From Bacteroidia bacterium (lineage in GTDB: Bacteria > Bacteroidota > Bacteroidia > Chitinophagales > Saprospiraceae): DNA of 34,976 bases. Positions 4,208 through 14,274 of the stretch are shown here, piece after piece. Position numbers and translations under genes: made by a program. The notes under the pieces are model-generated. The model was not told where the DNA came from and searched no databases. It was given only the letters and a program-made list of their open reading frames with translations. Every line of letters starts with the position of its first letter. Position 1 is the stretch's first letter. Location of the stretch: contig JAUIEA010000024.1 in assembly GCA_030429045.1 (NCBI GenBank), positions 1 to 34,976 of the forward strand. Direction: 5' to 3'.

Positions 4208-7200
4208 CTATCGCATCAATTGCAGATCGCCCTTGTACAGGCGTTCCTGGCCATCCGGCCAACGCAGGACCATGACATAGACATAGACTTCAATGCTAGC
4301 CGGTTGCCCACGGATTTCACCGTTCCAGCCCACATCCGGATCACCCAGCTGAAAGCCTCCGCTCCGAAAGACTTCATCCCCCCATCGGTCGAATATGCCG
4401 AAGTCGACAACCTCCACAGTGGGGTCCCCATGCGGAGCAAAGAGATCATTCAATCCATCATTGTTGGGGCTGAAGGAATTGGGAATGTAGATATCCCGAC
4501 GGTCCAGTTCGATGAGCACGGCATCCGTTGAGGTACATCCTCCCAGACTGGTCACGGTCACCGTAATCGTCGTGGTCTCCTTGACCCGAAATGCTGGATT
4601 CAGACAATCTTTACACAGTTCCGGAGACCATTCAATGGAGCCGATCGCGACAGAATCCGGGAAGATCTCGGCCAGCAGAAAGATCAATTTGTTTTCCTCG
4701 TGCAATTGGTTCGGGCCCAGTTCGACACTGAAGACGCTCTCCGATTCGATCTCCACCAATGTATCCACAGTACAACCATTTGCATCCGTGGCTGCCAACT
4801 CCAGTGGTCCCGCCGTCAGGGGTGGCCAGGTCTGGCCCGGATAGTCCACTCCATCCACCGCCCAGGTCAGCGGGGTGATCCCACCGGATACGGCGGCATT
4901 GACCACCTCAGGTGGCAACCCGTCACAGGGATCCTGGAAGATCGTCCAGGAAACCAGGAATGGCGGGGGCTCCACAAGTGTCTTGTCGAGAACCACCGAA
5001 CAACCGTGATCATCTGTGACCGTCACCGAAAAAGTTCCTGCGGACAGATCCATCAGTTCCGTTCCTGTTTCACCCGTAGACCAGAGTGCCTCAATGGGTA
5101 GTGTCCCCCCGGACAGGTAGTTGACCTGGAGGGATGCGGTCTGATCACCTGAACAAGCCACATCATATCCGTTGATCGTCGGTGAAGAGGACAGATCAAC
5201 CATTAACGGGTCAGGACTCAGGATGGTCACCGTATCCGACCAGGGGTGCCCTTCCTTGTCGATCAGGTTCAGAATATAGGTTCCGTCAGCAAGATCGGAA
5301 ATCAGATAAGGTGAGAAGAAGTTGGCCCAGGTCCCCATCTGGGGAGTCCCGCTTCCCTGGAGTGTCCAGGACACATCCACCGGGAAGGAACCGAGATCGG
5401 CTTCCAGCAGAATCTGGCCCGGGTCTCCGGCACAAGGCCCCGGGATGAGTGTTGGGGTCACGCGCAGGATACAACTGTCCAATGGGACGAGTTTGGTCGT
5501 CCAGGTGACCACACTGTCACATCCGTGCTGATTTGTGAACGTCTGAGAAATGGATCCGGTATCCAGCGGATTACAGGAAAAGAGAGTCAGCATTTTGGTG
5601 GAGCTGGGTAGCAACCGGATCTGCTCGATGATCACGCTGTCACATCCGTATTGATTGTTCAGGATGGTGGTGGTGGTATCCGCCACCATCGGGTCACAGG
5701 ATGTGGATTTCAGGACCAGGGTATCTGCCGGGATAAATGCAGTCTGGATAAGGACCATACTGTCACATCCCCATTGGTTGATCAGGTGCACAATCGTCTG
5801 GCCTGCATCGGCAGGATTGCAACTGTAGGCCTGGACCATACTGGTGTCAGAAGGCAACAGGGCGGTATTGGTCACCACCACGCTGTCGCATCCAAACTGA
5901 CTGGTCAGCACCTGGATGTCCACGCCCTGATCCTGGGGGTCACAGCTGGTTGCCGACACATGGGTGGTATCGGCCAATTCAAAACTGACCGCCAGGAGGG
6001 TGACGCTGTCACAACCGTATTGATTGGTGAGCAGGGTTTGAAACAAACCTGTATCCTGGGGATGGCAACTGGAGGTAAAGAGATGTGTGGTATCTGTGGT
6101 ATTGACGATCACCTCCACGGTATCAGTGCCAACACACCCATTCGCATCAGTAACCTCCACGGAATAGGAGCCGGCTGAGGACACCGGGATGGATGCAGAT
6201 TGTGCTCCGGAAGACCAGAGGTAGGAGGCGTATCCCATACCCGGGGACAGGACTGCGGAATCGTTCGGACAAATGACCGTGTTACCCATGATCTGTGGAT
6301 CAATGGGCGGGTAAAGCCCCAGGGTAATATCAGCTGTATCCCGACAGCCGAAGTCATCCTCCACAATCAATTCAAAGGTACCGGGCCCAATGGCCTTGAT
6401 GGATGGAGTGGTTTCTAGGGTTGACCAGAAATAATCCAGATAGATCGGGGGCGCTTCGAGGGTGGTCGAATCACCCGGACAGGTCAGGGTGTCTCCGGTG
6501 ATGACCAGGGGAACGGCAAAACTCTCTTTAACCTCCCATACGCCGATCCCGGGACAGCCTTCCTGATTGGTCACGGTAATCGTATATGTACCGGGCATGG
6601 TCACTTCGATCTGGGGAATGGTCGCTCCTGTAGACCAGAGGTACGTGGCGTAGACATCATCCACCTCCAGGAGGATGGTCTGTCCGGCACAGATCTGTTC
6701 AGGGCCAAAAATATAAGGTTCCGGTGCAGGTAATTCAGTGACGTCCCAATACGCTTCTCCGGTACACCCGAAATTATCTGTGACCAAAACCGAATAGAAT
6801 CCGGGGTCACTAACCGTGATCACCTGGGTATATCCGCCATTGGACCATTCGTACAGGGCATATCCGGGGCCGGCATCCAACTCGATGGTGGCTCCGGGAC
6901 AGATCTCTGTTGGTCCGGATATCATCGGTGTCGGAGCGGGATATTCTTCAATGGTGATGGAATCAGTGCCTACACATCCCCCCTCATTGGTCACCGTCAC
7001 CCAATAGGTACCCGGGTTACTGATGAAGATATCGGATGAGGTTTCTCCCGTCGACCAATCATACAGGGTATAATTGCCGTTTACGGAAAGTTGGACCACC
7101 TCCCCTTCACAGTACCAGGTTGGGCCGTCAATTGTCGGTTCGGGATCCATATATTCCACACCAACCGTGTAGGTATCCACTTCCGAGCATCCATTGGGTT

Positions 7201-8083
7201 CGGTTACGGTCACGGTATAATCACCCGGTGCCAGATCAGTAATGTCTTCGGTGGTTTCTCCGTTTGACCAGAGGTAGGTCGGTTCCTGGATGCACTCAGC
7301 AGTCACTTCCAGGTCGATCATCCCATCGGCACTGTTGTCGCAATTGGCATTCTGGACCACGGCATCAAGGGTCAGGACATTGTCACAACACACTTCACCT
7401 CCACAGTTGATAATAAACGGACATTCGGAACTGGGAAGATTGATCCAGATCGGGTTGGCCGGAGTGCCATACAGAAGGGTGACCACATCGATCCCGGACA
7501 AGTTGTCAATATCAAACGTAAAAGAATATCCACATCCAAGGCCCCCTACAATTCCACCGTCTGTACAACAGGTTGCCCAGACGAAACTGCCGGTAAATGT
7601 CGGAGGGACACCATTAAATTCACCCGGATCGTCTTGGAGCACAATGGTCGCTGAGTTGGGGAGGCAAGAAACCGTGACATCCATGGTTCCGCCGGTGGGG
7701 TCATTGGGCTCATCTGCAATGAAGATGAAACTCACCTCTCCTGTATTTGTATCCTCATAGAGCATGAGGATCAGATGTTCAGACTGTTCAAATCCAGTAT
7801 TGGCACATGCGCCCAGGGGGACTCCGTAGGAGTAGAAACTGAGCGCCGACTGGTTGTCCGAAAAGAACGGGAGGGTCGTACTGAAGGCATCCTGGGAAAT
7901 GGTACAGGGGCAATAGGAGGGTGCCTGTTCTACTTCTGGAAAGGGAACCTGAAAAGGATTTGCAGATGGATGCTGGCTCAGATCAGGCACAACCACTGTA
8001 GGCTGGGCTGAAAGGCTAGATTGCCAAACCACTAAAAAAGCTAGAATACCCCATCCAGCTAGAAACTTCATCATTTGGCCCAT
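4208..8083 (-). CDS. Giant secreted multi-repeat protein, T9SS type B sorting domain
   Basis: A 1291-residue exported protein. It begins with a signal peptide (MMKFLAGWGILAFLVVW... ending SLSAQ). Next come a Cys-rich N-terminal region, a SprB-like repeat (SADGMIDLEVTAE...YLWSNGETTEDIT), and about five PKD/Ig-like domains of ~80 residues, each with a [YF]xWS core and an NxxGC block. Five exact-length 41-residue repeats ending NQ-GCDSV follow, then more SprB-like units (GGTLPIEALWSTGETGTELM). The last ~95 residues (IPNSFSPNNDGLNDLFAPHG, IFDRWGDEVF, VGWNG, YVYVMVLRWPDG, YKGDLQLMR) are the gliding-motility-associated C-terminal domain, read by the type IX secretion system as a type B sorting signal. 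It is probably a cell-surface adhesin. The ATG at 8083 is chosen because AGGAGG lies 7 bases upstream. Confidence 0.9.
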   Translation of the reverse strand: MGQMMKFLAGWGILAFLVVWQSSLSAQPTVVVPDLSQHPSANPFQVPFPEVEQAPSYCPCTISQDAFSTTLPFFSDNQSALSFYSYGVPLGACANTGFEQSEHLILMLYEDTNTGEVSFIFIADEPNDPTGGTMDVTVSCLPNSATIVLQDDPGEFNGVPPTFTGSFVWATCCTDGGIVGGLGCGYSFTFDIDNLSGIDVVTLLYGTPANPIWINLPSSECPFIINCGGEVCCDNVLTLDAVVQNANCDNSADGMIDLEVTAECIQEPTYLWSNGETTEDITDLAPGDYTVTVTEPNGCSEVDTYTVGVEYMDPEPTIDGPTWYCEGEVVQLSVNGNYTLYDWSTGETSSDIFISNPGTYWVTVTNEGGCVGTDSITIEEYPAPTPMISGPTEICPGATIELDAGPGYALYEWSNGGYTQVITVSDPGFYSVLVTDNFGCTGEAYWDVTELPAPEPYIFGPEQICAGQTILLEVDDVYATYLWSTGATIPQIEVTMPGTYTITVTNQEGCPGIGVWEVKESFAVPLVITGDTLTCPGDSTTLEAPPIYLDYFWSTLETTPSIKAIGPGTFELIVEDDFGCRDTADITLGLYPPIDPQIMGNTVICPNDSAVLSPGMGYASYLWSSGAQSASIPVSSAGSYSVEVTDANGCVGTDTVEVIVNTTDTTHLFTSSCHPQDTGLFQTLLTNQYGCDSVTLLAVSFELADTTHVSATSCDPQDQGVDIQVLTSQFGCDSVVVTNTALLPSDTSMVQAYSCNPADAGQTIVHLINQWGCDSMVLIQTAFIPADTLVLKSTSCDPMVADTTTTILNNQYGCDSVIIEQIRLLPSSTKMLTLFSCNPLDTGSISQTFTNQHGCDSVVTWTTKLVPLDSCILRVTPTLIPGPCAGDPGQILLEADLGSFPVDVSWTLQGSGTPQMGTWANFFSPYLISDLADGTYILNLIDKEGHPWSDTVTILSPDPLMVDLSSSPTINGYDVACSGDQTASLQVNYLSGGTLPIEALWSTGETGTELMDLSAGTFSVTVTDDHGCSVVLDKTLVEPPPFLVSWTIFQDPCDGLPPEVVNAAVSGGITPLTWAVDGVDYPGQTWPPLTAGPLELAATDANGCTVDTLVEIESESVFSVELGPNQLHEENKLIFLLAEIFPDSVAIGSIEWSPELCKDCLNPAFRVKETTTITVTVTSLGGCTSTDAVLIELDRRDIYIPNSFSPNNDGLNDLFAPHGDPTVEVVDFGIFDRWGDEVFRSGGFQLGDPDVGWNGEIRGQPASIEVYVYVMVLRWPDGQERLYKGDLQLMR
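5490..6105 (-). repeat. Five tandem 123-bp repeats coding for 41-residue units
   Basis: Inside the adhesin gene the block CTGTCxCAxCC (plus strand) recurs at 5514, 5637, 5760, 5883 and 6006, an exact 123-base period. Each unit codes for SC-P-D-G...NQ-GCDSV. The two cysteines per unit could form a disulfide outside the cell. Nucleotide identity between units is only moderate, so the array is old, but its length is strictly kept. Confidence 0.85.
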
Positions 8084-8090
8084 AGGGAAT

Positions 8091-8096
8091 CCTCCT
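8091..8096 (-). promoter_or_regulatory. Strong ribosome binding site of the giant adhesin gene
   Basis: AGGAGG on the minus strand, 7 bases before the ATG at 8083. Such a perfect site is unusual in this phylum and fixes the start codon ahead of the signal peptide, against a longer in-frame form beginning near 8218. Confidence 0.7.
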
Positions 8097-8334
8097 CTCT
8101 TGGAGAGGGTCGGCCAAAGCACGTCTTCCCGGTTACTATAGAATGGTAACATCCTAGTAAATATAGGGGAAAATTTATTGAATAGCCTGTTCTTCCCTGG
8201 GTTTGATGTTGTTTCCAACTATAAACAAAATATACAGGCAAGCTTTGCTCCTGTTCGATAACAAAAAAAGAAGCCAACCTATACAGACTTAACCATGGCA
8301 GTAATACTCAAGTAGTGTATACAGGCATATAAAT

Positions 8335-8370: not shown

Positions 8371-10953
8371 CTAAATATTTTTCACATTGGATTTCTGGCC
8401 AGGGATGTTTACACTTCTGTATATTTTTTGAACCAATTCATCAATATCAAATGGTTTCCCAATAAAATCATCCATGCCTGCCTGATAACATTTGTCAACT
8501 TCTTCTTTCAATACATTAGCTGTCATGGCAATAATTGGGACCCTATAATATTTATCTGATAACGACTTTATCTTATTAGTGGCTTCATACCCATTCATCA
8601 CTGGCATCTGCACATCCATGAGAATAACATCATATTTCTCAGATTTATACTTCTCTACTGCAATAGATCCATTTTCAACAACGTCAACAAATACATCGTC
8701 AATCGCATCACCCAACTCTTCCTGTGCAACAATAGCATTGAAAGCATTGTCTTCTGCCAATAATATTCGAATACCTTTCAATTCTGTCTTTAGTCTTTTC
8801 ATATCCACAGTTTGCTCGTTTGGCAATTTATGCTGTTCCTTTTCAACTAATGAATATGGTATAGTAAAATAAAATTGACTTCCTTTTCCTTTGACACTTT
8901 CAACCCATATTCTTCCACCTTGAAGCTCAACCAATTTTTTTGAAATACTCAACCCCAGACCCGTACCGCCAAATTTTCTCGATGTATCTGAATAGGCTTG
9001 CTCAAATGAATCGAATATTTTGTTTGCTCTTTCTTCTTCAATCCCAATCCCAGAATCAGATATACAGAATTGGATAGATATTTTATTATCGTTGGTAGAA
9101 TCTACTTTCTCTGCAGAAAAAGTAACTATACCCTTCTGAGTAAACTTTATAGCATTCCCGACGAGGTTCAATACTATTTGCCTCAATCGAACTGGATCTC
9201 CACTCACATAGGGAATACTATCTGAAATTTTTAATTTTAACTCCAACCCCTTTTCTTCAGCTTTAAATAGCATAATTGTATGAATCTGCTCCAAGCTCTC
9301 CTGAATTGAAAAAGGTATACATTCCAGCTCTGTTTTCCCTGCCTCAATTTTTGAAATATCTAGGATATCATTGATGATCACAAGTAAAGATTCTGACGAC
9401 TGCTTGATCCCATTTAAGTAATCTAATTGCTCCGCTCCAGGGTTCCTCCTGATCAAAATATCAGTCATTCCCTTTATGGCATTCATGGGAGTTCTAATTT
9501 CATGAGACATATTGGCCAGAAATAATTGCTTTGCCCTTTCTGACGATTCGGCTTTGGCTTTTTCTTTTTCTATTCGCCTTTTTGAATCTGCAATCAGGCG
9601 GTTTCGTCTAAATAAAGTGATAGAAAGTATAATCAGTAATCCTACAAAGCCCAACGACAGATTTCGCACCGTGTCTTTTCTTCGGGATTCCTTTTGATGT
9701 TCAACTTCTGCCTGAAGGTTCAAATTATAATATCGTAACGAATCTTCCTCCAAGTGCTTTTTGAAATCTAATTCCAACATAACTTGGGCTGTTTCTTCTG
9801 AATTCAAACTGTCTTCATACATCTGAACATACTCAAGATATTCCAGTGCCCTTTCAGAGTCTCCCTTATATCTATAGGCCTTGTACAAACATTCGCATGA
9901 TCTCTGTTGTAAACCAATAGCCCCCCCAATTTCTCCTGTTTTCAGCCCTCTTAAACACCATTCAATGGAAAGATTCGTCTTTCCCATCAACGCGTATAAT
10001 TCTCCTATGTCAGTTTCAGTGCCCCTGATTCCAATTGATACTGAATCTAGTTTTTGAAATTCTAAACTTGTAAAATAGTGATGCAAGGCCAATTCGTACT
10101 TACTCTGCCTTAAAAACAAATCTGCAAATAAGGAATTCAATGAATTCATGTGATAATAATAATATTCACCCTCTTCTTCTTTCACAAGAAATATCATTTG
10201 CTCTATCATACTAAGGGCCGCATCATACTCACCCAATTGAATAAGTATTTTCACTATGTTCCTCTTGGCTATACTATTTCCCTGCTTGTCCCAATTCCCA
10301 ATCTCTACACTTCTTTCAAAATAATCTAATGCTGTTTCATAATCATTCTGGTCAAGATAAATAAGGCCTATATTATTCAATATGCCACTTATTGACCTTG
10401 AATCATTGAGTTCCCCATATATGTCAATGCACTGCATATAGATGCGTAAAGCCTTTGCCTTTTGTCCAATATGATAGTAAATAAAGCCCAATCCCCAGAG
10501 AGAGGAAGCCATACCCCTCTTATCATTTTCTTCAGCAAATAATTGATATGATTTATTTCCATGGTCTACTGCATCCAACCATTTAGATTCTCGCTTATTT
10601 ATATCACACAAATATTTATGAGATTTAGCTACATAAATTTTTTGATTTTTGCTCGTTGAAAAAGCCAGCATCTGCAATACCACGTGCTTTAGTATGTCAG
10701 GACCTTCCGTTGATTTTGTCGTCTCATAATATTTTTCCAATGCGCTAAGCCTAACTGTGTCATGCTGCATTTCATTAGACCACACAGACCACAAGGAGTC
10801 TGTATGCGTTTGTGAACAAACTGTTTCACCGGTAATGAAAAAAATGAATATCAAAATGCCTTTAACAAAATAAATGCATCCAAGTTGCCTGCCTCGTAAG
10901 CCTGATCCGAAATATGACAAATTATAATATTTTTGACCTGAAATTTTCCACAT
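8371..10953 (-). CDS. Hybrid sensor histidine kinase with periplasmic TPR domain
   Basis: An 860-residue hybrid kinase. A signal/anchor segment lies at about 27-46. A TPR-rich sensor region follows (about 60-400; for example ILNNIGLIYLDQNDYETALD), then a membrane helix at about 431-448 and a coiled linker. The HisKA domain has phospho-acceptor H484 in NMSHEIRTPMNAIKG. The ATPase domain has N-box RQIVLNLVGNAIKF, G1 DSGIG and G2 GGTGLGLSI. The C-terminal receiver has D780 in VILMDVQMPVMNG. All catalytic residues look intact. The outside TPR region probably senses a protein or envelope signal. It follows the Hpt gene by 8 bases; with the Hpt and receiver proteins it can form a complete His-Asp-His-Asp relay. 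The gene is much more AT-rich than its neighbours on either side. Confidence 0.93.
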   Translation of the reverse strand: MWKISGQKYYNLSYFGSGLRGRQLGCIYFVKGILIFIFFITGETVCSQTHTDSLWSVWSNEMQHDTVRLSALEKYYETTKSTEGPDILKHVVLQMLAFSTSKNQKIYVAKSHKYLCDINKRESKWLDAVDHGNKSYQLFAEENDKRGMASSLWGLGFIYYHIGQKAKALRIYMQCIDIYGELNDSRSISGILNNIGLIYLDQNDYETALDYFERSVEIGNWDKQGNSIAKRNIVKILIQLGEYDAALSMIEQMIFLVKEEEGEYYYYHMNSLNSLFADLFLRQSKYELALHHYFTSLEFQKLDSVSIGIRGTETDIGELYALMGKTNLSIEWCLRGLKTGEIGGAIGLQQRSCECLYKAYRYKGDSERALEYLEYVQMYEDSLNSEETAQVMLELDFKKHLEEDSLRYYNLNLQAEVEHQKESRRKDTVRNLSLGFVGLLIILSITLFRRNRLIADSKRRIEKEKAKAESSERAKQLFLANMSHEIRTPMNAIKGMTDILIRRNPGAEQLDYLNGIKQSSESLLVIINDILDISKIEAGKTELECIPFSIQESLEQIHTIMLFKAEEKGLELKLKISDSIPYVSGDPVRLRQIVLNLVGNAIKFTQKGIVTFSAEKVDSTNDNKISIQFCISDSGIGIEEERANKIFDSFEQAYSDTSRKFGGTGLGLSISKKLVELQGGRIWVESVKGKGSQFYFTIPYSLVEKEQHKLPNEQTVDMKRLKTELKGIRILLAEDNAFNAIVAQEELGDAIDDVFVDVVENGSIAVEKYKSEKYDVILMDVQMPVMNGYEATNKIKSLSDKYYRVPIIAMTANVLKEEVDKCYQAGMDDFIGKPFDIDELVQKIYRSVNIPGQKSNVKNI

Positions 10954-10961
10954 AATAGGAA

Positions 10962-11315
10962 TTACAATAATTCTGAGTGACTATTGTTGTCAATAAATTC
11001 TCTTAATACAGCCTCCGATTCCTGGTGAAAGTTAAAGGCATTTCCATAAAGAATGGTAAGATTGTCAAATTGATTTTGATTAATACTATCTTCAATTTGC
11101 TTGAGTACCTTTTTCAAATTCAATAAACCCATGAAATCTGCCTGGGGCTTTAAGGAGTGTGCATTAATCCGAAGGTGATTCCAATCTTTCTCATCTAGAT
11201 TTCTCCGCATCTTACTAAATGTTTCAGGAGCAACATCAAGGTATAGAGCAATGTATCGCTTCATCTTACTGATATCCCCCTTGGTAAATTCTTCTAAAAA
11301 GGTAAGATCAACCAT
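10962..11315 (-). CDS. Histidine phosphotransfer (Hpt) protein
   Basis: A 117-residue stand-alone Hpt domain. The phosphorylated histidine is H53 in INAHSLKPQADFMG, matching the AHxLKGxxxxxG pattern of Hpt helices (P replaces the usual G). Length is that of a single four-helix Hpt domain and no other domain is present. The start codon overlaps the stop of the upstream receiver gene (TAATG), so the two are translationally coupled. Its role would be to pass phosphate from the receiver of the hybrid kinase to an output receiver, either the 128-residue receiver next to it or the divergent LytTR regulator. Confidence 0.88.
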   Translation of the reverse strand: MVDLTFLEEFTKGDISKMKRYIALYLDVAPETFSKMRRNLDEKDWNHLRINAHSLKPQADFMGLLNLKKVLKQIEDSINQNQFDNLTILYGNAFNFHQESEAVLREFIDNNSHSELL

Positions 11316-11701
11316 TATACATTTGCCTTTATCAGTTCATACACTTGTTCAAATGCATCCTGACCTTTAGGAACATAATGCACAGCCCCATACATAATCG
11401 TTTTAGCAGCAGTAGCATATTTTTTTTGACTAGAAAGCATAATCACGGGTATGGTTTTATCTAAAGATTTAATTTCCTTCAGAATGTCAATTCCATTGGC
11501 TGCATCTCTTTCTTTTGTATTCAGATAGTAATCAAGGACGACCACATCAGGACGTTGAATGATATGAGGCAAACATGCTTCACCAGTTGCAAAGGACTTA
11601 ATATTGAATCCACCATATTTGCTAAGTAAATAGTCGCTCAGCATCTCTGACAACAAAGGTTCGTCATCAACAATAAAAATGTTTGGATTTGCACGGTTCA
11701 T
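11315..11701 (-). CDS. Single-domain response regulator (receiver)
   Basis: A 128-residue receiver domain without an output domain. The acidic pocket is DDE at residues 12-14, the phospho-acceptor is D57 in VVVLDYYLN, the conserved Ser/Thr position is in VIMLSS, and the lysine is K112 in VPKG. It may act as a phosphate sink, or bind a partner protein as CheY does. It is the first gene of the minus-strand phosphorelay cassette and overlaps the Hpt gene. The LytTR regulator gene starts 135 bases away on the opposite strand, so the intergenic region must hold divergent promoters. Confidence 0.9.
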   Translation of the reverse strand: MNRANPNIFIVDDEPLLSEMLSDYLLSKYGGFNIKSFATGEACLPHIIQRPDVVVLDYYLNTKERDAANGIDILKEIKSLDKTIPVIMLSSQKKYATAAKTIMYGAVHYVPKGQDAFEQVYELIKANV

Positions 11702-11836
11702 CTCGAATTACTTTTGTTAACACAAATAACGGTGTTCCAATTGAAATACATCCAGTTAGATTATCAAGCGGTATTTTTATTGAGCAAGTGGTATGCAACC
11801 CTAGACGATTAGGATAATTATAGTATTTTACCTCAC

Positions 11837-12604
11837 ATGAAAGAAGTGGAAGGTAGCTGCATAAGATGCTTAATTATTGATGATCAGAGACTGAATGTTG
11901 AGATTTTATCCGATTTACTTGAAGGTGGACATCCCGAAGTTGAAGTTATTGGTAGAATATTGGATCCCTTTCAAGCAGTAGAGCAAATCAACCAACTGAA
12001 GCCTGACCTAGTATTGCTGGATGTGGAAATGCCTGGAATATCTGGATTTGATGTGCTCAGTAGAGTCGATTCAATTGATTTTCAGACCATATTTGTTACA
12101 GCTTATAGTCAGTATGCCATACAGGCAATCCGGTTTAATGCGCTGGACTACTTACTCAAGCCGATTAAGCCATATGAGTTGGCAGCAAGTCTGAAACGAT
12201 ATAAATTGAAGGACTATGCATTCCAAAACCAAAGCCAGGTTAAACAAGCAATCACAAACCTGAATACCAAGAATGTACTTGACCAGATTCTATTCTTGCC
12301 TTCCCACGATGGTGGTATGAAGTTTAAACTAGGTGATATCGTGAAGATATCAGGTGAACGGAATTATAGCACTATTCATCTATCAACCGGACGAACAAAG
12401 TTGAGTTCGAAAACCCTTGGATACTTTGAAGCAGCCCTTCATGGAAAAGGATTCTACAGATGTCACAGATCTATAGTAGTCAATGGCATTTATGTGGAGA
12501 AGTTAAAGAAGGACAAACTCTATTTAACTACAGGAGATGAAGTAACTATTTCACGAAGGCGGTTAAAGAAAACTAAGGACTGGTATGCAAGTAGGGTCAT
12601 GTAG
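11837..12604 (+). CDS. LytTR-family response regulator
   Basis: A 255-residue transcription regulator. The N-terminal receiver (about 8-125) has the acidic pair DD, phospho-acceptor D62 in LVLLDVEMPGISGFDV and K108 in DYLLKPIKP. The C-terminal LytTR DNA-binding domain (about 155-250) shows GDIVKISGERNYSTIHL, the core FYRCHRSIVVNGIYVEKL and VTISRRRLKK. These regulators usually pair with membrane kinases. Here the partner is most likely the divergently encoded hybrid kinase/Hpt set. A TACTTTTG box at 11709-11716 with TTG 17 bases above could be its promoter, with a leader of about 115 bases. The gene is AT-rich like the kinase cassette, which suggests they were acquired together. Confidence 0.92.
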   Translation: MKEVEGSCIRCLIIDDQRLNVEILSDLLEGGHPEVEVIGRILDPFQAVEQINQLKPDLVLLDVEMPGISGFDVLSRVDSIDFQTIFVTAYSQYAIQAIRFNALDYLLKPIKPYELAASLKRYKLKDYAFQNQSQVKQAITNLNTKNVLDQILFLPSHDGGMKFKLGDIVKISGERNYSTIHLSTGRTKLSSKTLGYFEAALHGKGFYRCHRSIVVNGIYVEKLKKDKLYLTTGDEVTISRRRLKKTKDWYASRVM

Positions 12605-12641
12605 TTTTCCAATGACCTTTTAACAGCCAATTGGGTGCTAT

Positions 12642-12732
12642 TGATGCCGGACCCACACATGGGCTTCAACCTTGGACCTTCGGATGATACCAGAGTACTT
12701 GGGACCGCTCTATCCTGCTGAGCTACCTCGCC
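12642..12732 (-). pseudogene. Degenerate tRNA-like copy 4
   Basis: On the minus strand GGTAGCTCAGCAGGATAGAG is a clear D-arm, followed by GCGGTCCC, an imperfect palindrome around AGTACT (12688-12704) where the anticodon should be, then ATCCGAAGGTCCAAGGTT. The T-arm end is replaced by a CCCA-TGTG-TGGG hairpin (12652-12663). Acceptor ends do not pair. It cannot work as a tRNA. It is the most diverged member of the tandem series descending from tRNA-Asn. Ends are approximate. Confidence 0.65.
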
Positions 12733-12769
12733 AGCCTGTTCTTTGATCTGTGCTTTGCTTCCTCAAATC

Positions 12770-12799
12770 AAAAAAGGCCCTCAACTTTCGTTCAGGACC
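12770..12799 (-). terminator. Terminator hairpin after tRNA-like copy 3
   Basis: Minus-strand RNA reads GGUCCUGAAC-GAAA-GUUGAGGGCC then six U. The stem is about ten pairs with one mismatch and one G-U pair, closed by a GAAA loop. It is a canonical intrinsic terminator and follows copy 3 directly. Confidence 0.8.
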
Positions 12800-12804
12800 T
12801 GTTG

Positions 12805-12887
12805 CGCCCCCTCAAGGACTTGAACATTCGAACTACGGATTAATCCCGAGTCCTCGGGACCGCTCTATCCTGCTGAGCTACCTAGCC
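12805..12887 (-). pseudogene. Degenerate tRNA-like copy 3 with palindrome in the anticodon arm
   Basis: The minus strand carries a D-arm (GTAGCTCAGCAGGATAGAGC), the start of a tRNA-Asn anticodon stem (CGG), then TCCCGAGGACTCGGGA in place of the ACTG before TTAATCCG, and an intact-looking TTCAAGTCCTTG T-arm. The acceptor strands GGCTAGG and AGGGGGC do not pair well. The anticodon GTT is destroyed, so it cannot decode. The RNA could still fold into a tRNA-like shape with a lengthened anticodon arm. Confidence 0.75.
12844..12859. repeat. Palindrome TCCCGAG-TC-CTCGGGA
   Basis: A 7-base perfect inverted repeat with a 2-base centre, sitting exactly in the anticodon loop of tRNA-like copy 3. It differs at one central base from the palindrome at 13006-13021. 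Confidence 0.85.
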
Positions 12888-12924
12888 AGCCTGTTCTTTG
12901 ACCTGTGCTTAGCTTCCTCAAATC

Positions 12925-12954
12925 AAAAAAGGCCCTCAACTTTCGTTCAGAGCC
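12925..12954 (-). terminator. Terminator hairpin after tRNA-like copy 2
   Basis: Minus-strand RNA GGCUCUGAAC-GAAA-GUUGAGGGCC followed by six U. Same family as the hairpins at 12770-12799 and 13074-13104, with a GAAA loop and one mismatch. Confidence 0.8.
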
Positions 12955-12965
12955 TTTGCGCCTCC

Positions 12966-12985
12966 TTCCCGCTTTAGAGCGGGAA
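12966..12985. repeat. Palindrome TTCCCGCT-ttag-AGCGGGAA
   Basis: A perfect 8-base inverted repeat with a 4-base loop, replacing the T-loop of tRNA-like copy 2. It is distinct from the CCCGAG palindromes but shares their CCCG...CGGG design, like REP-type elements. Confidence 0.8.
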
Positions 12986-13005
12986 ACCTTGGACCTACGG
13001 ATTAA

Positions 13006-13021
13006 TCCCGAGTACTCGGGA
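13006..13021. repeat. Perfect 16-base palindrome TCCCGAGTACTCGGGA
   Basis: Fully self-complementary 16-mer in the anticodon position of tRNA-like copy 2. The flanking bases (CGG ... TTAATCCG on the minus strand) are those of the tRNA-Asn anticodon stem, so the insertion point is exact. Confidence 0.85.
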
Positions 13022-13073
13022 CCGCTCTAACCAGCTGAATCGTTCTTGGTGCATTCAACCTTCCAATTTGCAT

Positions 13074-13104
13074 AAAAAAAGGCCCTGAACTTGTGTTCAG
13101 GACC
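13074..13104 (-). terminator. Terminator after tRNA-Asn
   Basis: Minus-strand RNA GGUCCUGAAC-ACAA-GUUCAGGGCC then seven U. Ten pairs including one G-U. It starts 5 bases after the discriminator base of tRNA-Asn, so the tRNA transcript ends here. Confidence 0.85.
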
Positions 13105-13109
13105 CTTTG

Positions 13110-13183
13110 CGCCTCCTCAAGGACTTGAACCTTGGACCTACGGATTAACAGTCCGCCGCTCTAACCAGCTGAGCTAAGGAGGC
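13110..13183 (-). tRNA. tRNA-Asn (anticodon GTT)
   Basis: A 74-base tRNA on the minus strand. The acceptor stem GCCTCCT pairs fully with AGGAGGC and the discriminator is G. The D-arm is AGCTCAGCTGGTTAGAGC. The anticodon stem-loop CGGACTGTTAATCCG gives GTT, reading AAC/AAU. The T-arm is CAAGGTTCAAGTCCTTG. The 3' CCA is not encoded. It is followed at once by an intrinsic terminator and then by three degenerate tandem relatives. Confidence 0.95.
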
Positions 13184-13332
13184 AATTATCTTGTTCGTTC
13201 CTTGGAACTTCAAATGACGCACCACTTTTGGTACCAGAGATATCTGATTGAGCTTTCGTTCAAAGCGGCAGCAAAGTTATCACAATCCCCTTAAAAGTGC
13301 AATCTTTGAGCCGCAAATCAATCCAAAATTTT

Positions 13333-14274
13333 ATGTCCCTCCTTGTTGTTGGCACAGTAGCCTTCGATTCCATCGAAACACCCTACGGAAAAGTCGATCA
13401 GGTCGTCGGTGGTGCTGCTACCTATATCTCCCTGGCAGCTTCCTATTTCACCAACCGGATCCAACTGATATCAGTCATTGGTGATGACTTTCCCGAAGCT
13501 ACACTATCCGACTTGACCAGACGAGGAGTGAATCTGGATGGCCTGCAGGTCAAACAAGGAGAAAAGTCTTTTTTCTGGGCGGGGAAGTACCACACCGATC
13601 TGAATACCCGGGATACACTGGTCACAGATCTCAATGTCCTCGCCGATTTCGATCCAGTCTTACCGGACGACGCGAAAAATGTATCCTATGTGATGCTGGG
13701 AAATCTGACTCCGGCAGTCCAGCGGCGAGTCCTGGATCAATTGGAGTCCACACCCCGGTTGGTCGCCATGGATACCATGAACTTCTGGATGGACATGGCT
13801 CTGGACGAATTACTTGAAGTGATCAAACGGGTTGATCTGCTCACCATCAATGATGAAGAAGCCCGCCAGTTGACCGGGGAATACAGCCTGGTCAAGGCGG
13901 CCCAGAAGATTCTCACGATGGGCCCTCACATTCTGGTCATAAAAAAAGGAGAACACGGAGCTCTATTGTTTATGCGTGACGAGGATGATCATGAAGTGCA
14001 CATTTTCTATGCCCCGGCCATGCCTCTGATGGATGTGTTCGATCCTACCGGAGCTGGAGATACATTTGCCGGCGGCATGATGGGTTACCTGGCCCAAACA
14101 GATGACCTGAGCTTTGACAATCTCAAACGTGCCCTGGTCTATGGCTCTGCCATGGCATCGTTCTGTGTTGAAAAGTTCTCCATCCAGCGCCTGACCGAGC
14201 TGGATGTTCCTCAAATCCTCCAACGCATAGAAAAGTTCAGACGTCTGGTCCATTTTGACCGCGACAAGGTCTGA
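13333..14274 (+). CDS. PfkB-family sugar/nucleoside kinase
   Basis: A 313-residue ribokinase-fold kinase that would phosphorylate a sugar or nucleoside hydroxyl with ATP in the cytoplasm. The N-terminal substrate region shows VGGAATYISLAASYF. The C-terminal PfkB signature is DPTGAGDTFAGGMMGYLAQ (about 237-255) with catalytic base D243 and the anion hole GAGD. I chose the ATG at 13333 rather than a GTG 36 bases upstream, because the GG-rich fold starts directly with MSLLVVGTVAFDSI and an AATCTTTG box (weak -7 match) lies at 13301-13308. Substrate cannot be told from sequence; it resembles the sugar kinase/adenosine kinase branch. It converges with rlmN, 17 bases apart. Confidence 0.9.
   Translation: MSLLVVGTVAFDSIETPYGKVDQVVGGAATYISLAASYFTNRIQLISVIGDDFPEATLSDLTRRGVNLDGLQVKQGEKSFFWAGKYHTDLNTRDTLVTDLNVLADFDPVLPDDAKNVSYVMLGNLTPAVQRRVLDQLESTPRLVAMDTMNFWMDMALDELLEVIKRVDLLTINDEEARQLTGEYSLVKAAQKILTMGPHILVIKKGEHGALLFMRDEDDHEVHIFYAPAMPLMDVFDPTGAGDTFAGGMMGYLAQTDDLSFDNLKRALVYGSAMASFCVEKFSIQRLTELDVPQILQRIEKFRRLVHFDRDKV

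Follow-up and report, generated by a model that had tools for sequence, protein, structure and literature searches.

Hairpin-interrupted partial copies behind a tRNA-Asn gene in a Saprospiraceae genome: probable residue of a GIY-YIG element that invades tRNA genes

The window analysed here, a stretch of 34,976 nucleotides from a member of the Saprospiraceae (assembly GCA_030429045.1, contig JAUIEA010000024.1, positions 1 to 34,976), contains an array made up of one intact tRNA-Asn(GTT) gene followed on the same, minus strand by three degenerate copies of it. The intact, resident gene (13109..13183, minus strand) is called by ARAGORN and scores 72.9 bits with the Rfam tRNA model. Copy 1 (12957..13046), copy 2 (12804..12887) and copy 3, the most decayed (12652..12732), all on the minus strand, were delimited by repeat analysis, alignment and folding; the units lie ∼155 bases apart (134 to 162 bases, mostly 150–162, in repeat families D1–D4), and family D1 spans 149 nt at 87% identity. 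ARAGORN, Rfam and the repeat analysis thus bear out the tandem array described in the first-pass annotation, made by a model from the sequence, which was also roughly right in calling two neighbouring units nearly identical over ∼95 bases. The tRNA gene is followed by a terminator-like hairpin and T-run read from the sequence (GGNCCTGAAC-loop-GTTNAGGGCC, 13074..13105, minus strand), which recurs with one or two changes behind copies 1 and 2 (12925..12955 and 12770..12800, both minus strand; read from the sequence and by repeat analysis), as that annotation had noted; no such hairpin was seen 3′ of copy 3 on inspection of the sequence. A consensus terminator scan found none in the region, at odds with these hairpins; stem and T-run are plain in the sequence, and we take the misses as a limit of the scan.

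Copy 1 is laid out as a D-arm, a hairpin in place of most of the anticodon arm, a variable region, a T-arm hairpin and the acceptor 3′ strand, with no matching 5′ acceptor strand. At the anticodon-arm position, both copy 1 (TCCCGAGTACTCGGGA, 13006..13021, minus strand) and copy 2 (TCCCGAGGACTCGGGA, 12844..12859, minus strand) have a perfect palindrome of the form TCCCGAG-NN-CTCGGGA that replaces most of the arm; the earlier claim that a palindrome stands in for the anticodon holds for these two copies, whereas in copy 3 the palindrome is decayed (TCCCAAGTACTCTGGTA, 12688..12704, minus strand). A second palindrome, TCCCGCTCTAAAGCGGGA (12967..12984, minus strand), which had gone unmentioned, lies inside the T-arm of copy 1; this T-arm hairpin has positional counterparts with other cores in three genomes of the same genus (G002, G003 and G004, introduced below). 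ARAGORN calls none of the three copies, and the Rfam tRNA model hits none of them with the cut-off relaxed to E ≤ 10, so that the covariance scoring once suggested for each copy returns no tRNA; moreover, their minimum-energy folds are not cloverleaves, and they have no paired acceptor stem. By either measure, the Rfam and ARAGORN thresholds or the cloverleaf, the units fall outside the functional tRNA genes.

A DNA search that covered the window's own genome (G000) and 59 relatives found comparable units beside the same kinase gene in G002, G003 and G004, of the same genus, and in G012, of another genus of the family. Such units thus recur beside tRNA-Asn in relatives, as the first-pass annotation had proposed to check, and their recurrence in these four genomes excludes a chance origin. 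The kinase is a PfkB-like sugar kinase (13297..14274, plus strand) and is the conserved neighbour that marks the orthologous locus in G001–G004; for G012, linkage was established from the kinase start in L074. The junction AGAGCGG/hairpin/TTAATCC (TTCATCC in G002) is common to G000, G002, G003, G004 and G012, while the hairpin cores differ. An open reading frame (ORF) for a GIY-YIG nuclease lies within the array at this same locus in G002 (L068), between tRNA-Asn and the units in G003 (L071/L072, two contigs with overlapping ends), and after a unit, with a broken frame, in G012 (L073). G001, which has the same kinase and downstream gene as G002, carries a bare tRNA-Asn and no array; presence of the GIY-YIG gene therefore varies at one orthologous locus within the genus. 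Kinase identity is 89.2% between G000 and G002, 86.5–86.8% between G001 and both of these, and, relative to all three, 78.7–81.6% for G004 and 74.8–76.8% for G003, which makes it simpler to suppose that G001 lost the array. Upstream of its intact gene, G002 has one more partial tRNA-Asn copy (L068, minus strand, ∼2004–1913), whose D-loop carries ACTGCCTACGGCAGT.

The terminators of the units in G004 and G003 are closest to that of the tRNA in their own genome (identity 0.94, with others ≤0.78, and 0.92, with others ≤0.74, respectively), so that in at least two lineages the units have been renewed from, or homogenised with, the resident locus. The units for this comparison were set by the GGCGC anchor, at locus positions 338 and 492 in G000, 882 and 1036 in G004, 427 in G003, 105 in G012, and 914, 1069, 1224, 1596 and 1752 in G002; anchor matches in the kinase gene were left out, and one G003 match labelled as tRNA is a unit.

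Short GIY-YIG genes are found beside other tRNA genes as well. The window's genome has eight matches to PF01541, two of which are in long ORFs (638 and 390 aa); the six short matches all lie 44–676 bp downstream of tRNA genes (Asp; Phe, two in tandem; Ala, two, both broken; and Ser). In the cases read, the nuclease is ∼80–110 residues long and matches little outside the GIY-YIG domain. The five sister-locus proteins scanned all match PF01541 (E 6.5e-12 to 8.3e-21), and the columns invariant in six of six sister-locus proteins include Y5, Y16, G18, R26, H30 and E63, which we take to be catalytic. Across 40 genomes (our own and 39 relatives) we used 67 short-ORF loci, of which 64 are hit by a profile of six of these proteins (L191–L193 are not); the short (<200 aa) matches G009:C10, G010:C4:43515, G037:C114 and G042:C123 were left out. 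An intact tRNA lies within 250 bp at 36 of the 64 loci, as compared to an estimated ∼0.3 to 0.5% of loci expected by chance (from 42 tRNA hits in 4.27 Mb), and 10 of 27 other short-ORF loci with no intact tRNA at hand carry a tRNA fragment within 450 bp. Among long-ORF GIY-YIG controls, none of nine has a tRNA in the whole fetched stretch and none of nine a fragment within 450 bp; likewise, none of 29 loci of a UPF0213-like subfamily, a class drawn by eye post hoc, has a tRNA neighbour or a fragment within 450 bp. Several fetched loci stop at contig ends.

Relatives of the Asp-linked protein (L101) in named records are also tRNA-linked, with 16 of 25 within 250 bp, in a set of 26 fetched loci that was picked by likeness to a tRNA-linked protein and is not a fair sample; the tRNA-linked records come from Bacteroidota, Patescibacteria, a Lentisphaerae bacterium and a Deltaproteobacterium. 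In a sample of best matches from across the phylum, in which UPF0213-like proteins are numerous, 7 of 28 loci (29 fetched) lie within 250 bp of a tRNA. The same Asp-linked protein matched 22 phage records, none of them T4-like among the 20 listed, and Draconibacterium orientale has a small GIY-YIG gene beside tRNA-Pro (L197).

A partial copy of the same tRNA is present at 46 of the 59 tRNA-linked loci (all sets together), at 40 of them beyond the nuclease, as compared to 7 of 295 in a mismatched control that set each tRNA against the flanks of a locus of another isotype. Most copies lie beyond the nuclease; some loci have them on either side of it. Where the order is tRNA–nuclease, 21 far-side segments extend to the 3′ end of the tRNA alone, 4 to the 5′ end alone, 2 to both ends and 11 to no end; where it is nuclease–tRNA, 12 extend to the 5′ end alone, 4 to no end, and none to the 3′ end. 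Such a polarity is expected if an insertion splits a tRNA gene and brings a substitute for the half that is lost. In the first order, the domain starts 36–64 bp behind the tRNA at 23 of 39 loci, and in the second the nuclease frame enters the tRNA at 10 of 20. At L142, L143, L146, L150, L153 and L155, the nuclease frame ends inside the tRNA, whose 5′ end would code for the last residues.

The hairpin swap seen in the window recurs in copies of other tRNAs. Both D-arm and variable region are retained in 25 distinct copies (28 rows less two re-reads of L196 and one false tRNA-Lys, L243), of which 17, from Pro, Asn, Val and Asp in eight genomes, have a TCCCG..CGGGA hairpin as anticodon arm (L161 being counted from its sequence); the other 8 comprise four with another hairpin, two with a longer insertion, one decayed (copy 3 of the window) and one intact. 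Across 57 tRNA loci, the anticodon loop with its 3′ stem is the least copied part (0.51 copies per locus), as compared to 1.34 for the D-arm, 0.77 for the variable region, 0.77–0.85 for the T-stem and 0.70 for the acceptor 3′ strand. Partial copies occur within 1.5 kb of 8 of 32 distinct tRNA genes of the window's genome (30 loci at hand, of 42 hits), two of which we discount (Thr, where the tRNA is cut at a contig end, and Val, with one short segment). In the same genome, hairpin copies with no nuclease found on the contig accompany tRNA-Pro(TGG) and one tRNA-Met, as is the case for the window's tRNA-Asn. The Pro gene (L065:808-1200, G000:C72; no nuclease match on the contig) is followed by two terminator-ended copies with TCCCGCCGTCAGGCGGGA and TCCCGCTGGTAAGCGGGA as anticodon arms, and the Met gene (L006:1355-1695, G000:C131) has copies on both sides that share the junction GGTTA/hairpin/TGACTCATAATC, give or take a base, with differing cores.

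The hairpins are in part a general genome repeat: compared to a reversed control, TCCCGN{4,14}CGGGA is enriched in G000 (171 vs 59), G039 (21 vs 1) and G091 (74 vs 9), and hardly so in G018 (73 vs 72), G014 (10 vs 9), G109 (29 vs 26) and G062 (82 vs 70). Other repeats and tRNA-like matches also appear at the loci read. A longer nested palindrome, GTCCGGATCCAGACATCCCGC..GCGGGATCGTCTGG (L102:660-740, L085, L091), lies between the Phe-linked nuclease and a tRNA-Phe 3′ copy, with a similar element elsewhere in the genome; between tRNA-Ser(CGA) of L104 (G000:C73) and the nuclease gene behind it lie several near-identical repeats in which GGCGAGC-type sequence abounds; and a 114-base tRNA-like match of 34 bits, uncalled by ARAGORN, lies on a 5.7-kb contig (L067:484-597, G000:C17:2883-2996).

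A tree of 59 tRNA-linked nuclease domains has 21 isotype changes, as compared to a mean of 42.1 when isotypes are shuffled (0 of 200 shuffles as low); it is built on 86 columns, leaves many forks unresolved, and omits L071 (a fragment), L172 (two tRNAs, ambiguous), L195 (same contig as that of G001), second copies per locus and domains of <60 residues. Restricted to genomes that have two or more such genes (29 rows), the count is 11 isotype changes vs 19.5 shuffled (0/300), and 18 host-genome changes vs 18.2 shuffled (174/300). Thus, the nuclease goes with its tRNA isotype and not with its host. Clustering is beyond every shuffle for Asn, Asp and Met, and nearly so for Ser and Val (2/500). Within the Met clade the nuclease stands before the tRNA in L142 and L165 and behind it in L145, L162 and L187, and within the Asp clade before it in L194 and behind it in five others; moreover, 162 of 173 same-isotype locus pairs have no common flanking protein (in the fetched stretch, ∼1.5 kb on each side). 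We count both the switching of sides and the unshared flanks for targeting.

From these observations, the array in the window is probably the residue of a GIY-YIG element that invades tRNA genes. A full element would consist of a short GIY-YIG gene near an intact tRNA gene, together with partial copies of that same tRNA gene. Its nuclease would cut the tRNA gene, and repair from an element-bearing template would insert the nuclease gene with a replacement tRNA half, such that one intact tRNA is kept and the half that was displaced is left as a degenerate copy. The hairpin may prevent re-cutting of the copy, or prevent it from acting as a tRNA; the nuclease may be expressed through read-through of the tRNA terminator; and tandem arrays could come from repeated rounds or from unequal crossing-over. 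In the window, the nuclease gene would have been lost, or would never have come with these units, and three scars would be left. Taken by itself, the window array is a scar that, with no nuclease, cannot be classified as a member of the element. The wider proposal, to which we give an even chance, is of a widespread class of bacterial selfish elements: minimal GIY-YIG lineages, each going with one tRNA isotype, would invade the matching tRNA gene, keep one working tRNA through a replacement half, and leave displaced halves neutralised by hairpins, the window being such a scar without its nuclease. The isotype match is clearest for Asp, Met, Asn, Ser and Val, and weaker for Arg, Glu and Phe. 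Full-text searches of the open-access literature (preprints excluded) turned up no account of GIY-YIG genes that sit at tRNA genes of bacteria along with partial copies of the tRNA.

Several findings weigh against the invading-element reading. Neither cutting nor movement has been observed, and the cutting, the cut site, the mobility and the role of the hairpin are all inferred. A Pfam search with PF01541 finds no GIY-YIG gene in the window or its contig; 28 of the 64 short-ORF loci lack an intact tRNA within 250 bp (some of the tRNA-less loci are at contig ends and some belong to the UPF0213-like subfamily), and 13 of the 59 tRNA-linked loci have no partial copy. An Arg copy (L159) retains its anticodon arm, and the hairpin of the tRNA-Met locus L006 is on the D-arm side. 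Terminators of the G000 units are as near or nearer to the tRNA of G002 as to their own, and of the five G002 units three are nearest their own tRNA terminator, one ties and one is nearer to that of G000, such that the terminator test gives no clean separation of own from other for these two close relatives. The intact tRNA-Asn of G002, where the nuclease is present, is letter-for-letter that of G001, with no nuclease and no copies; a target inside the tRNA alone would then be cut in the carrier as well, so that either the target has to extend past the tRNA or the resident gene has to be cut weakly. Protection through a recoded resident tRNA is accordingly rejected for Asn, since the two tRNAs are identical. 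As for isotype, none forms a single clade; Pro, Lys and Ala do not cluster (500 of 500 shuffles as low), and Arg, Glu and Phe do so weakly (17, 35 and 15 of 500, respectively). Old paralogues, each passed down by vertical inheritance at its own tRNA, would cluster by isotype as well; 11 of the 173 same-isotype pairs do have a common flanking protein, including six Asn and three Glu pairs across genomes, and part of the isotype pattern is therefore probably vertical.

Such inheritance is one half of a plain-decay explanation, which we consider unlikely: a tRNA-Asn tandem would have arisen by unequal crossing-over, the extra copies rotting away, and the nucleases elsewhere would be inherited tenants of tRNA flanks. 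Copy 3 is clearly decayed and without a terminator, G001 has no array, no function is known for any unit, and some same-isotype loci have the common flanking protein just mentioned, all as decay would have it. Yet decay leaves unexplained a perfect hairpin with a changing core at one junction in G000, G002, G003, G004 and G012, the hairpins that other genera show in their tRNA-Pro, -Val and -Asp copies, and the polarity of copies around the nuclease. The simple decay of a tRNA tandem that the first-pass annotation offered is disfavoured by the recurrence at the orthologous locus, by the own-genome terminators in G003 and G004, and by the same swap in other isotypes and genera.

That annotation alternatively envisaged that the units make small tRNA-like RNAs. 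We regard such RNAs, whether as sponges for processing or modifying enzymes or as decoys for anticodon nucleases, as very doubtful. Two of the three units do have a terminator-like hairpin, a D-arm and an arm-like hairpin at the anticodon-arm position, and hairpin pairing is conserved while the core differs between genomes. However, copies are mostly halves that lack one acceptor strand, and the window units, with no paired acceptor stem, neither score as tRNA nor fold as a cloverleaf, leaving such a function unsupported. The lone sigma-70-like match of the region (13213–13185), in a scan with other promoter types outside its scope, precedes the tRNA. We have therefore rejected tRNA-like RNAs as the leading reading: no unit scores as tRNA at E ≤ 10 and none is a cloverleaf. 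Apart from that match, TAACTTTG (13272..13279, minus strand), read from the sequence, is a possible promoter of tRNA-Asn, resembling what we take to be the Bacteroidota −7 promoter box.

Tyrosine-integrase genomic islands use tRNA genes as sites and leave the 3′ part of the tRNA repeated across the inserted gene, and tRNA 3′ parts repeated behind a tRNA, as here on the far side of the nuclease gene, resemble attL/attR. The copies would then be att-site scars of integrase-borne islands at the tRNA flank, a reading to which we attach very little probability, although the two-component block at 8371–12604 separates the array from the following gene in the window and is missing from that place in G001 and G002. 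What recurs next to copies of this kind is a gene for a GIY-YIG nuclease; 5′ parts are copied too, in mirror arrangement; the copies carry hairpins; and the window shows no integrase at the array, with no ORF of at least 80 aa at 12605–13296 and no room for one between tRNA and copies (other loci were not searched for integrases). The integration hotspot named in the first-pass annotation is nonetheless the nearest of its readings, inasmuch as such tRNA genes host short stand-alone GIY-YIG genes.

It is just as improbable that the small GIY-YIG protein is a structure-selective nuclease acting on hairpins (cruciforms), with tRNA genes chosen as hairpin formers and with no sequence-specific homing. 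The nearest solved relatives of the nuclease profile are two UPF0213 proteins (PDB 1zg2 and 1ywl are small GIY-YIG proteins of this kind, the best sequence relatives of solved structure), followed by SLX1 structure-specific nucleases, which leaves room for action on hairpins, and hairpins recur in the arrays read. However, the nuclease tree follows isotype, which is not expected from structure alone, and the UPF0213-like relatives, as classed by eye, have no tRNA neighbours and differ from the genes studied here in the absence of tRNA fragments noted above (0/29). Finally, REP palindromes mobilised by RAYT are likewise short and dispersed, as is the TCCCGN{4,14}CGGGA motif over-represented in the window's genome, but such an origin of the hairpins is rejected, as the palindromes at all four Y1-transposase loci of this genome differ in sequence (CCCAGGGTT..AACCCTGGG and similar).

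The invading GIY-YIG element is nearest in kind to the free-standing homing endonucleases. Of the features of such a system, the GIY-YIG domain is found at the sister loci and not in the window; a gene beside its target is found at the sister loci, with the tRNA as presumed target; and, as to an altered target in the element-bearing allele, the copies are hairpin-interrupted, yet the resident tRNA-Asn is the same in G001 and G002. One such enzyme is SegB of phages T4/T6, described as a free-standing GIY-YIG homing endonuclease beside the phage tRNA cluster, with cut sites within tRNA genes (motif RAWTSGAAC, 23 of 83 sites), and as a driver of segmental amplification of the tRNA region (PMC13096335). 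By our own reading, the motif would fit the T-arm of tRNA (GATTCGAAC, reverse strand). The same paper states that nucleases of this type typically cut the donor allele inefficiently (PMC13096335), and weak donor-allele cutting would be needed here too, because the tRNA-Asn of G002 is that of G001. SegB resembles our system as a free-standing GIY-YIG nuclease beside tRNA genes; unlike it, the genes reported here are on bacterial chromosomes, as short ORFs with little but the domain, matched to isotype and accompanied by partial, hairpin-bearing tRNA copies. Group I introns with homing endonuclease genes, described in bacterial tRNA genes (PMC3984707), similarly tie homing endonucleases to tRNA genes, whereas here the tRNA gene next to the nuclease stays whole, flanked by broken copies; at gathering thresholds, tRNA is the sole family that Rfam reports in the window.

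On the other side of the array from the kinase, the block at 8371–12604 comprises a hybrid histidine kinase (8371–10953), two short ORFs, one of them response-regulator-like by sequence, and a LytTR-type response regulator (11837–12604). It sits between the array and a gene at 4208–8218 whose homologue directly adjoins the tRNA-Asn locus in G001 and G002, and the block was therefore probably gained in the window's lineage.

If the invading-element reading is true, it explains both the crowding of short stand-alone GIY-YIG genes at the tRNA genes of these chromosomes and the origin of palindrome-bearing pseudo-tRNAs, which annotation may mistake for small RNAs or tRNA pseudogenes. Homing-type elements, as found in introns, inteins and phages, would also gain a form that resides in the chromosome and is aimed at essential tRNA genes according to isotype. 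Should cutting be confirmed, the hairpin swap would raise the question of how a displaced tRNA half becomes harmless, and each lineage would be a natural nuclease for a given tRNA gene.

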